From an uncultured Pseudomonadota bacterium (GTDB taxonomy: Bacteria > Pseudomonadota > Gammaproteobacteria > Methylococcales > Methylomonadaceae), in NCBI GenBank assembly GCA_903876445.1, contig CAIQZX010000091.1, positions 1 through 60,783 on the forward strand: a DNA stretch of 60,783 nucleotides, written 5' to 3'. The notes beneath the pieces are model-generated. The model saw nothing but the letters and a program-made list of their open reading frames with translations, was not told where the DNA came from and searched no databases. This document shows positions 41,994 to 45,762 of the stretch, in pieces; the stretch's first letter is position 1; every line of letters starts with the position of its first letter. Both the position numbers and the translations under genes were made by a program.

Positions 41994-42992
41994 ATGAAAA
42001 ATTTTATTAAAATTGTAATCATCATGTTATTGGGATTTATTGTTTTCCCCGTTCATGCTGCGAATTTGTTGAGTGACAACAAGCAGCCGCCAACTACTAA
42101 TCCGGCACAGTCGTTGAGCAGGGATGCGGTTTGTACCCGTTGTCATGATGAAACTGAAAATAAGCCAATCCTTTCTATTTACCAAACAGCTCATGGTAAT
42201 AAAGGCGATTCGAGAACCCCTTCATGTCAAACGTGTCACGGCGAAAGTGACTCACATATTAGAGGTGACCAGCAACAGAAAGTAAGACCGCGTCCTGATT
42301 TTACCTTTGCAGAAAAATCTCAAACTTATCCGGCATCACCAGCTGAAGCTAGAAGTGGGCAATGTATTTCTTGTCACGAAAACGGTTTGCGTAATCATTG
42401 GGCGGGCAGCCAACATCAAAGCCAAGGCGTGGCGTGTAACTCTTGTCACACCGTTCATACACCTCGCGATAAAGTGTTAGCAAAAACGACGCAACCCGAT
42501 GTTTGTTTTACTTGCCACAAAAGTCAACGTGCTGAATCTCATTTGTTTTCAACTCATCCGATTCAAGCGGGTAAAACCTCCTGTTCAGATTGCCACAACC
42601 CGCATGGTTCAACAGGTCCTAAATTGTTGATTAAGAATTCAATAAATGAAACCTGTTACACCTGCCATGCTGAAAAACGTGGTCCATTCTTATGGGAACA
42701 TTCACCTGTTTTCGACGATTGTACAAATTGCCACACACCACATGGTTCTAATAATTCACCATTGTTAAAAACACGCGCTCCGTGGTTGTGCCAAGAATGC
42801 CATACTGCTGACCACGCCAATACGGTAGACAGTGGAGCAAATTTAATCGGCGGTGATGTCACCACTATTAACGGCAATCAACCAGCGGCGAGTTTAAATC
42901 CAAGAGCGCAAGCGAATGGGCGTGCTTGTTTGAGTTGTCATTCCATGATTCATGGTTCTAATCATCCAGCGGGTGCTAAGTTCAACCGTTGA
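41994..42992 (+). CDS. Decaheme c-type cytochrome, MtrA/DmsE/PioA-like
   Basis: Signal peptide and 10 CxxCH motifs (CTRCH, CQTCH, CISCH, CNSCH, CFTCH, CSDCH, CYTCH, CTNCH, CQECH, CLSCH); MtrB-like porin downstream. Confidence 0.93.
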   Translation: MKNFIKIVIIMLLGFIVFPVHAANLLSDNKQPPTTNPAQSLSRDAVCTRCHDETENKPILSIYQTAHGNKGDSRTPSCQTCHGESDSHIRGDQQQKVRPRPDFTFAEKSQTYPASPAEARSGQCISCHENGLRNHWAGSQHQSQGVACNSCHTVHTPRDKVLAKTTQPDVCFTCHKSQRAESHLFSTHPIQAGKTSCSDCHNPHGSTGPKLLIKNSINETCYTCHAEKRGPFLWEHSPVFDDCTNCHTPHGSNNSPLLKTRAPWLCQECHTADHANTVDSGANLIGGDVTTINGNQPAASLNPRAQANGRACLSCHSMIHGSNHPAGAKFNR

Positions 42993-43320
42993 CATCCTCC
43001 CCGCCCTAAAGGGAACGGGGATTCCTAGGTTTCGCAATCTAGGTTTCTGTTTCAAAGAGTGTAGCTCGGGGGTAGCTTGGTTATCGCCGTAAAATCCCAG
43101 AGGGAATTTTACGGTGTCGAACCAACCCATATTCCCCCAAGACTCACACACTCTCCGGAGACTTAACATACCGCAAGCCCTGCGGTAGGTCTAAAAAGAC
43201 GGAGTTATTTTATAACAGTAAGTAAGCACAACGCAAACAGGAGAATGCGTGATTGAGGGCGGCTTATCGCCGCCGCGCTTACCTCCCCGCACTGAACGGC
43301 GGGGTATCACGCGCAATTTG
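42990..43320 (+). mobile_element. ORF-less IS200/IS605-like element with large structured RNA candidate (IscB/HEARO- or TnpB-type omega-RNA-like)
   Basis: Begins at TTGACATCCTCCCCGCCCTAAAGGGAACGGGG; nested ~100-nt stem 43056-43154; further hairpins CCGCAAGCCCTGCGG, GGCGGCTTATCGCCGCC, CCCCGCACTGAACGGCGGGG; ends at the mtrB-like ATG. Confidence 0.7.
43056..43154 (+). ncRNA. Nested multi-segment stem-loop inside the element (candidate omega-RNA scaffold)
   Basis: AGAGTGT/ACACTCT, GGGGG/CCCCC, TTGGTT/AACCAA and CCGTAAAATCCC-AGA-GGG(A)ATTTTACGG pair concentrically. Confidence 0.6.
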
Positions 43321-45762
43321 ATGAACAATAATTTTTTAATTGTTAGAACAGCGGCTTTGATGAGTTGTGCCATTTTTTCTGTTTGCACTTTCGCGGCAGA
43401 GGATGCGGCAGAATCCGAAACTGCAGAATTAACAAAACCTAAAAGCACCGTTGAGTTTGGTGTAGGTGGCGTAACCGATTCGTCGTGGAAATTTGGTCAA
43501 TACAATGGTTTGAATGATAGTGGTGTTTATGGCATCGGTAATTTTGATATTCGTGGTGGCGCAGCTTATGACAGTGACGACGCTACTCGTTGGCGTTTAA
43601 CTGGTAAAGACATCGGTTTGGATACTCGTAATTTTACTGGTGAGTATAAAGACCAAGGGCATTACAAACTTAATTTTGATTATGACGAGTTACAAGTAAA
43701 TCGTAATGGTAGCTATTTAACACCTTATTTAGGTGTTGGCGGTAATAATTTGAATTTGCCTAACTGGACACCCCCAGCCGCAAATAATATGCGAGCTTTG
43801 CCGTCAACTGACTTGCCGGATTTTCATACTGTTAGCATGGAAACAACACGCAAAAAAATTGATGGTGGTTTTAGCTATTTCCTAACTGACCACTGGGAAG
43901 TACAAGCCAGTGTGCGCCATGAAGATAAAAATGGCTTGCAAGCTCTCGGTGCGCCGATTGTCGCTGCACGTTCGATTATTTTACCGAATCCAATTTCTCA
44001 ATCAACCGAACAAATTAACGCCAGCATGAAATACAACGGCGAAAAAGGCTTTGGTCAATTCGCTTATTATGGTTCGTTATTTCATAACGACATTAACGGT
44101 GTGTTGTTTCAAAATCCTTTTGCAGCAGGTCAACCTGCTTTTGGGCGTATGAGCAGCGCACCCGATAACCAATTTCATCAGTTTAGTTTAACGGGTGGAT
44201 ATAACTTCACCACCAACACTAAATTAGTCGCTAATGGTTCGTATGCTAGAAATTGGCAAACTCAATCATTCTTACCTTATAACACTGCCAATGATAGTGG
44301 TGGATTTTTACCAGTTTCAAATCTAAATGGTGATGTAGAAACGAAAACCGCTAATTTGAAATTAACGCATCGTGTAAATAGTGATTTCAATGTTGCATCG
44401 GCTTATAAATATGACGAGCGCGAAAATAACACGCCCATCAATTTGTACAATTTCAATGATGTTGATAGTGTTATTGCTACCGGAACTACACCGACTAATT
44501 TCCGTAGCAACACGCCATACAGTAAACGTATCAATCAAGGTAATTTAGATGCCAATTATTCGTTCGCTAAAGGTCAATGGCTAAAAGCAGGCTACGAAAT
44601 TCAAAACATTGATCGTTGGTGCAACGGCACTTGGATTTCTTGTGTTGATACAGGAACCACTCTCGAAAATACAGGTAGAATTGATTATCGCGGTAGTTTT
44701 CTGGACAAATTCAACGGCAAATTGGGTTACGCTTATTCGCATCGTACCGCCGATAATTACAATCAAGATAATGGAGCTTGGGCATCGTATCCCGCCACGG
44801 CTGGCAACATGGCACTTTATAATTTAATTACTCAATCAGGATTGCCTGCCTGGGGGGCGTTTTCACCTTATGCCAATGCACCGACGGCTTTGTTCCCTAA
44901 TAATAATGCCGCTACGACGGGAAATTTAGCGAATAACTCAATGGATATAAACGGTCTTGGACGATTCAATACATCAAATCGTGAACGTCAAAAAGTGCAT
45001 TCGTATTTAGATTATCAAGTGAATAATAAATTGTCGTTAGGCGTTGGCGGGGATTTCCGTTACGACGAATACCCTGATTCTAGTTTTGGGCTACAGTCTT
45101 CGAGAAATTGGGGAACGAATTTTGATACGAATTATAATTTTGATGAAGATACGAGTATTCAAGTGTTTTATTCGTACCAAGATATTTTAACGAATACAGC
45201 AGGAATGTCTTACGGTGCAAATTCCAATTCCAGCACAGCTAGCATTGGTGGCGTAGCGACTGCGGCAACGCTTTCTGGTGGCTGTTTTTCTAGTGTTCAA
45301 GCAATGAACAATAGTGCGAAAACAGATCCTTGTCGTAATTGGTTCACCAATATGAACGACAACATAGATACTGTTGGTTTTGGAGTAAAACACAAAGGAT
45401 TCTTCGGCGGTAAATTAGATATGAACGGGGATTTTGTTTATAGTTTTGCTCGAACATTGATTGGCGTTGATGGTGGAAGTTATACACAATTAACGGGACA
45501 GCCTAATTATTACTACACTCGCGCCGCCGATATGCCAACCGTTAAAACACAAACCTTCCAATTCAAATTAAACGCAAAATACATTATCAATAAACCTTCA
45601 GCGATTCATTTAAGTTATATGTATCAGCATTTGTTTAGCAGCGATTATATTTACACTGGAATGCAGCCAGCCGGAACCCCAACGGGCGTTGTGCCAACAT
45701 CTGAACAATCGCCAACGTATTCTATCCATGCGATAGGGTTATCTTATATCTATAATTTTTAA
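43321..45762 (+). CDS. MtrB/PioB-like decaheme-associated outer-membrane beta-barrel
   Basis: Signal peptide; VEFGVGGVTDSSWKFGQYNGLNDSGVYGIGNFDIRGG; repeated beta-strand pattern; downstream of decaheme cytochrome; C-terminal aromatic YIYNF. Confidence 0.9.
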   Translation: MNNNFLIVRTAALMSCAIFSVCTFAAEDAAESETAELTKPKSTVEFGVGGVTDSSWKFGQYNGLNDSGVYGIGNFDIRGGAAYDSDDATRWRLTGKDIGLDTRNFTGEYKDQGHYKLNFDYDELQVNRNGSYLTPYLGVGGNNLNLPNWTPPAANNMRALPSTDLPDFHTVSMETTRKKIDGGFSYFLTDHWEVQASVRHEDKNGLQALGAPIVAARSIILPNPISQSTEQINASMKYNGEKGFGQFAYYGSLFHNDINGVLFQNPFAAGQPAFGRMSSAPDNQFHQFSLTGGYNFTTNTKLVANGSYARNWQTQSFLPYNTANDSGGFLPVSNLNGDVETKTANLKLTHRVNSDFNVASAYKYDERENNTPINLYNFNDVDSVIATGTTPTNFRSNTPYSKRINQGNLDANYSFAKGQWLKAGYEIQNIDRWCNGTWISCVDTGTTLENTGRIDYRGSFLDKFNGKLGYAYSHRTADNYNQDNGAWASYPATAGNMALYNLITQSGLPAWGAFSPYANAPTALFPNNNAATTGNLANNSMDINGLGRFNTSNRERQKVHSYLDYQVNNKLSLGVGGDFRYDEYPDSSFGLQSSRNWGTNFDTNYNFDEDTSIQVFYSYQDILTNTAGMSYGANSNSSTASIGGVATAATLSGGCFSSVQAMNNSAKTDPCRNWFTNMNDNIDTVGFGVKHKGFFGGKLDMNGDFVYSFARTLIGVDGGSYTQLTGQPNYYYTRAADMPTVKTQTFQFKLNAKYIINKPSAIHLSYMYQHLFSSDYIYTGMQPAGTPTGVVPTSEQSPTYSIHAIGLSYIYNF

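Follow-up and report, generated by a model that had tools for sequence, protein, structure and literature searches.

In the window (the whole stretch of 60,783 nucleotides analysed here), a short mobile element separates two genes of an operon for electron transfer, and its left end adjoins the start codon of the downstream gene, mtrB. We consider it probable that this element, a non-autonomous member of the IS200/IS605 group moved in trans, belongs to a lineage that uses the target TTCAT, resides at start codons and carries a folded substitute for the Shine-Dalgarno (SD) sequence in its left end.

The element and its copies

The IS200/IS605-type element was 337 nt long and spanned 42989-43325 on the minus strand, with the target TTCAT counted in. 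The features of the locus were as follows:

41994-42992, plus strand: mtrA-like multiheme cytochrome gene; its TGA stop (42990-42992) lies within the right end of the element
42989-43325, minus strand: full extent of the element, from its right end (42989) to its left end (43325); a 98% copy of the same span occurs in contig C181
42989-43025, minus strand: right end GAATCCCCGTTCCCTTTAGGGCGGGGAGGATGTCAA, ending in TCAA; the plus strand gives TTGA, the present mtrA stop; termini identical among copies
43321-43325, minus strand: target site and transposon-associated motif (TAM) TTCAT; the complement ATGAA is the mtrB start codon and two further bases
43321-45762, plus strand: mtrB/pioB-like outer-membrane porin gene (Pfam PF11854, 442 bits)

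When the minus strand was read, the element started with TTCAT|CAAATTGCGCGTGATACCCCGCC and finished with GAATCCCCGTTCCCTTTAGGGCGGGGAGGATGTCAA|, and this start and end together give the layout of an IS200/IS605 element. The right end of IS608 likewise finishes in TCAA. Imperfect palindromes were present close to both ends, terminal inverted repeats were absent, and insertion had taken place 3' of a short fixed target without target duplication, TTCAT being found at the left ends of all family-I copies. An ORF-less IS200/IS605-type element between mtrA and mtrB, with an omega-RNA-like region and no target duplication, had been proposed in the first-pass annotation, and the copies, their ends and an empty site at leuD agreed with it. 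The location was right, while the extent of 42990-43320 had to be corrected to 42989-43325 so as to include TTCAT. Similarly, the motif TTGACATCCTCCCCGCCCTAAAGGGAACGGGG at the mtrA stop did overlap the TGA at 42990-42992, and its start was at 42989 instead of 42990. The nested stem of about 100 nt was recovered at 43056-43154 and the palindrome shortly before the mtrB ATG (43321) at 43285-43304. ORF inspection found no tnpA, tnpB or iscB within 42989-43325, as had been noted.

The genome assembly to which the window belongs is fragmented and incomplete (223 contigs), and copies were gathered both by search and by sequence stretches. A second full-length copy, 98% identical, was located in contig C181 of the same genome, and partial copies with 96-99% identity were located at contig ends: left-end halves at C157 and C15, and right-end halves at C100, C68 and C130, the flank at C130 being the same as that of C181. 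Similarity among the copies stopped at 42989 and 43325. Contig ends and distinct flanks indicated four insertions of near-identical copies (about 97-100%) in this genome, probably that of a methanotroph-type bacterium: between mtrA and mtrB, between leuC and leuD (C68 with C157), between an upstream gene and bioD (most likely C100 with C15), and at the gene in C181. The genomes compared were likewise incomplete, and the interiors of elements were collapsed in assembly. TTCAT was common to the left-end copies C91, C181, C157 and C15 and to those of two further genomes, G014 and G001. The element had been called an orphan; this description did not hold, for the genome has four copies, related elements occur in other members of the family, and a cousin carries TnpB. 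Fragmentation into 223 contigs might raise the thought of an assembly artefact, or of an ordinary intergenic region, but the copies already refute it, and the autonomous cousin, the empty site and the covariation speak against it too, so that its probability is practically negligible.

The right end's final 38 nt also occurred at more than 30 further places in this genome, where they are part of other short elements. Another short ORF-less family of about 345 nt, with the target TTTAT, has the same 38-nt right end. It is present in more than 20 copies in the window genome at contig ends (e.g., L023, L031 and L034) and is complete in sister species (L089, L090 and L077); its repeats break the assembly.

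Autonomous relatives

A search of the genome for full-length copies with iscB or tnpB had been proposed as a check; an element with tnpB was present in a sister species of the same genus (G014). This element of 1.35 kb has a left end 95% identical to ours over 86 nt and a related right end, and it encodes an intact TnpB of 373 aa in which Pfam PF12323, PF01385 and PF07282 were all present. The same type of left end preceded tnpB-like frames in G193 and G181, the latter frame with one internal stop. Judged from these sequences, the window element is a non-autonomous IS200/IS605 member from which tnpB was deleted and in which a candidate TnpB-type RNA region was kept. A TnpA for the TTCAT clade was not found, nor was a compatible tnpA or tnpB in the incomplete assembly of the window genome. 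Y1 genes do occur in this genome, and those with visible left ends had ends of the TTTAT type. The only intact tnpB found in its own assembly belonged to an IS607-like pair (L042, G000:C170:8000-11500), consisting of a serine recombinase with an N-terminal helix-turn-helix and a TnpB of 363 aa. TTCAT-type elements of about 415-550 nt were also observed in G083 and G078 (L181, L189 and L173); they have the right end ...GGGGTGATTGACT and an internal RNA region quite unlike that of the window element.

The element resembles the PATEs described from Haloquadratum (PMC3119063) and Halanaerobium (PMC7290912), which share subterminal palindromes, the lack of inverted repeats, target duplication and ORFs, and presumably movement in trans. 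Unlike PATEs, it has retained a candidate RNA region of the TnpB type and its left end is long and structured; start-codon insertion is not described for PATEs in the passages of the two reports consulted. With ISDra2 and IS608, which carry TnpA and TnpB and specify a right-end RNA (reRNA), it shares insertion 3' of a short T-rich target and a candidate right-end RNA region whose guide would lie in the flank (PMC8612924). It differs from them in its target (TTCAT instead of TTGAT or TTAC), in having no genes, and in an extra left-end module with an SD-like motif and the helices P1 and P2.

A candidate TnpB-type RNA region

The element folded more stably than shuffled sequence on both strands (z of -6.6 on the minus and -5.4 on the plus strand). 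Two features concern its right end:

42989-43200, minus strand: candidate omega-RNA (reRNA) region of the TnpB type, comprising the GCAGGGCTTGC hairpin, a long nested stem and a terminal hairpin
42973-42988, minus strand: predicted guide position of 16 nt, CGGTTGAACTTAGCAC, antisense to the end of mtrA, placed by sequence and by the reRNA layout of PMC8612924

By their position, by sub-threshold Rfam matches and by similar elements elsewhere, the 210 nt of the right end look like a TnpB-type omega-RNA region. An Rfam scan of the element region gave zero matches at the gathering threshold, and the matches below it fell on the minus strand only (HPnc0580, E about 0.005; HgcC, E about 0.09). Stretches 78-90% identical in short elements of three other genera resembled the region, the copy in G251 apparently decaying. 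Either an IscB/HEARO-type or a TnpB-type element had been suggested. The TnpB-type alternative was favoured, whereas the HEARO/IscB assignment was rejected, since HEARO (RF02033) gave no match and the RNA region sits at the right end; what it has in common with HEARO/IscB is its place in an IS200/IS605-type element. Both HPnc0580 (RF02269) and HgcC (RF00062), compared with the minus strand of window 42976-43200, resemble TnpB-type right-end RNAs, and their original annotations may hide omega-RNAs.

A putative TnpB-type RNA would be made from the element, and CGGTTGAACTTAGCAC would then be its guide. A TnpB-type guide had been expected to cover the start of mtrB. However, the RNA region reads on the minus strand, which puts the guide position in the end of mtrA, in antisense. 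The main role of the element could in principle be guidance by RNA: with a guide taken from mtrA, the minus-strand RNA would direct a TnpB supplied in trans to cut the empty allele and thereby preserve the insertion, or a nuclease-dead homologue to regulate. TAM and guide geometry are as for TnpB (PMC8612924), and the region was kept in short elements of several genera despite the loss of tnpB. Nevertheless, we regard this role as very unlikely, because a compatible TnpB was not found in the genome's own assembly, the guides differ from copy to copy and match only the pre-insertion site, and the RNA in G251 is apparently decaying.

Insertion at start codons

All four left ends in the window genome adjoined the ATG of a gene, namely mtrB, leuD, bioD and a gene for an ODP-type metallo-hydrolase. 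The contact arises because ATGAA is what the target TTCAT reads on the opposite strand, and this also explains the exact placement between stop and start codon. At leuC-leuD, the empty site was found in a relative (G008) as TGGACAGGAGAATAAGAGA|ATGAAAGCC, and the flanks in the window genome were exactly these halves; this insertion was clean and lay between the SD sequence AGGAG and the ATG. The joined flanks at bioD and mtrB were stop/start overlaps, ...CC|ATGA and ...CCG|ATGA, respectively, and after insertion the right-end TTGA is the stop of the upstream gene in the same frame.

A search of 237 genomes of the family with the covariance model R1, which was built from start-codon copies and includes the SD positions, recovered copies in 27 of them; outside the family, one genome from a different family of the order had copies too. 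Forty of the 45 readable TTCAT-type left ends adjoined the ATG of an open frame encoding 60 aa or more, though length alone cannot establish that each of these starts is native; when one orthologous pair was counted once, the proportion was 39 of 44 independent left ends. The genes included leuD, bioD, mtdB, proB, argS, recG, CheW and a Lon-like protease (an assignment of this G083 gene as comM was rejected). NCBIfam models aligned at the N-termini of leuD, bioD, proB, argS, recG and CheW, and Pfam models at those of mtdB and ODP. Background was estimated from 260 kb and 61 kb of sequence with a simple and approximate ORF caller: in the window genome, 4.9% of all ATGAA sites and 40% of the non-coding ones were starts, and in G083 the values were 4.1% and 16%. 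Against a background of 0.40, the excess of left ends at start codons had a p of about 3e-11. In G083 alone, 10 of 14 left ends were at starts (p 6e-6), and so were four of six copies there with near- or fully identical, that is recent, left ends. The ODP-type gene in C181 (L017) and a G083 gene alike at its N-terminus (G083:C128, L177) both carried an element at the start codon; the left ends are of different subtypes in two genera, and these appear to be independent insertions at the same kind of gene start.

Start codons could be occupied simply because the element is a plain ends-only member of the group, of the PATE kind, with CAT contained in TTCAT, insertions elsewhere being purged, the fold serving the transposase and the SD-like motif being incidental. 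The target by itself makes contact with ATG possible, and coding sequence accounted for 88% of the ATGAA sites sampled in the window genome, where insertions should be purged. Yet non-coding ATGAA sites that are not starts exceed those that are, and 39 of 44 copies were nonetheless at starts; together with the left-end structure described below, this makes the plain-element account rather unlikely. The bias could reflect selection for insertions that leave both neighbours expressed, or a preference of the machinery for such sites. In the open-access literature, we found nothing relevant on start-codon insertion of IS605-type elements or on TTCAT with TnpB.

Left ends also occurred alone. Solo or degenerate left ends, with the right end undetected, preceded mtdB and proB in G001, and one was common to G010 and G011 at an orthologous gene, as expected if such ends stay as gene leaders. 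The earlier suggestion that the element may now be the leader of mtrB appears right.

The left end as a folded RNA

Read toward mtrB, the left end contained the following features, all on the plus strand:

43213-43325: left-end RNA module, model R1, with strong covariation in a 39-copy alignment
43222-43227: 5' half of P1 (GTAAGC); GCTTAC at 43277-43282 is its partner
43239-43243: AGGAG, SD-like, directly 5' of helix P2
43246-43253: 5' half of P2, the helix proposed to bridge SD and ATG
43258-43274: hairpin P3 (GGCGGC-TTATC-GCCGCC), six of six pairs varying on both sides
43285-43304: terminal hairpin P4, a palindrome
43306-43313: 3' strand of helix P2, partner of 43246-43253

Covariation, which had been proposed as a check on the element, was clear in the left end. 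In the alignment (39 copies, 37 distinct), three helices covaried with a score of 0.446, compared with 0.159 +/- 0.012 for shuffles and at most 0.136 for slid controls, and 15 of 19 pairs changed on both sides. P2, for example, appeared as GCGTGA/TCACGC, GCGAGA/TCTCGC or GCGGGA/TCCCGC. A fourth helix, P1, which crosses P2, alternated between GTAAGC/GCTTAC and GATAGC/GCTATC, with the right partner in 35 of 37 copies and the wrong partner in none. The prediction of minimum-energy folds was ambiguous for the mtrB copy, with P2 formed when one segment was folded and a different hairpin when another was; covariation therefore carries the argument. In some other copies, P2 was not in the minimum-energy fold either.

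The AGGAG at 43239-43243 had been taken for a start-like remnant. The sequence is there, and being conserved in every copy, it is the most telling feature. All 37 distinct copies had an SD-like 4-mer directly 5' of P2, compared with a background of 2.0% of 10-nt windows, and this motif varied in register among copies (GGAGA, AGGAA, GAGGA), as expected of an SD. The spacing from SD to ATG was about 78 nt in linear sequence and had a median of 9 nt (7-14) with P2 formed; the left end has a conserved covarying helix between SD and AUG, which would bring them to within 7-14 nt. When each genome or subtype and pair was counted once, the non-Watson-Crick cells of P2 and P3 on the sense strand were G-U in 25 and A-C in 5 cases (p 3e-4). 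The fold under selection is therefore most likely that of the transcript that reads in sense through the downstream gene, and neither that of the strand cut by the transposase nor that of the TnpB transcript.

Relatives with the target TTTAT served as a control, since the complement ATAAA cannot supply a start codon. An SD followed by a P2 strand was found in none of 12 TTTAT-clade ends; one of them (L192) had GGAGG near P3 without P2. P4 and the GCTTAC or GCTATC motif were also present in TTTAT-clade ends, which would suit a plain element whose fold serves the transposase. Nevertheless, that account has to reckon with wobbles on the strand opposite to the one cut by the transposase, and with an SD-like motif that is universal in the TTCAT copies, varies as an SD does and is absent beside TTTAT ends. 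A CTCC beside P4 (window 43283-43287) was kept in most copies of the left-end alignment A3. In a different fold this CTCC might pair with the SD, which would perhaps be an off state.

A model for translation initiation at mtrB

In relatives (L096, L097 and L103), mtrA and mtrB are separated by a 22-nt spacer with a good SD. This spacer was absent here, exactly at the right edge of the element, indicating that it was lost before or at insertion; for the same reason, the mtrA-mtrB empty site itself was not seen. The flank joined after removal of the element has no SD, and no native SD remains for mtrB, so a substitute would be needed. In named records, the relatives of mtrB came from MAGs of uncultured proteobacteria and Methylococcaceae.

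In the model that we favour, a Y1 transposase would move the element in trans. With TTCAT read as ATGAA on the other strand, the left end touches the ATG, and nearly all copies lie between a gene's own SD and its ATG, so that the native SD is moved away by a whole element length. As a substitute, the left end has an SD-like sequence followed by P2 enclosing P3 and P4, with P1 crossing P2, and the folded module would set this SD about 9 nt from the host ATG. At ATGA stop/start overlaps, the right-end TTGA also takes over the upstream stop. Ribosomes would then use the left-end SD, and the substitute would be the reason why start codons are tolerated or preferred.

Translation might also be restored by a leader reading frame, which would begin at the SD and a GTG and fuse with, or stop next to, the gene without any bridging of SD and ATG. 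In the window, this frame is an extension of mtrB within the element:

43249-43320, plus strand: in-frame mtrB extension of 24 codons with a GTG start, from the ORF list; an alternative start

AGGAG-N5-GTG was in frame with mtrB, leuD, bioD and proB, and the frame stopped at or near the ATG in C181, G014, mtdB, G193 and G181. When the clade was examined as a whole, the leader peptide held in only part of it: the GTG frame ended far from the ATG or was missing in G083, G078, G058, G251 and G137, and G271 had no such leader although SD and P2 were kept. We therefore regard restoration by a leader frame as quite unlikely.

A precedent for bridging is known. In phage T4 genes 25 and 38, an mRNA helix shortens the distance from SD to AUG from 22-27 nt to 5-11 nt (PMC3014915). 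The principle would be the same in the window left end if the bridging model is right. The differences are that the distance here is about 78 nt, that the module is mobile and that the AUG comes from the target site.

We lean, somewhat cautiously, towards the broader view that this lineage is specialised on start codons, with the host ATG as its target site; that the left end acts as a folded ribosome-binding site which moves with the element and takes the place of the displaced one, possibly also as a switch, given the CTCC within the fold; and that elements or solo left ends persist as 5' leaders of core genes. If this is true, a mobile element limits its damage by entering at a start codon with its own translation initiation region, and the coexistence of high-copy elements with argS, recG, leuD, mtdB and other core genes would be explained. 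The left end would be a portable ribosome-binding site of natural origin, for which the target supplies the start codon, and it would show a route by which transposon ends become gene leaders.
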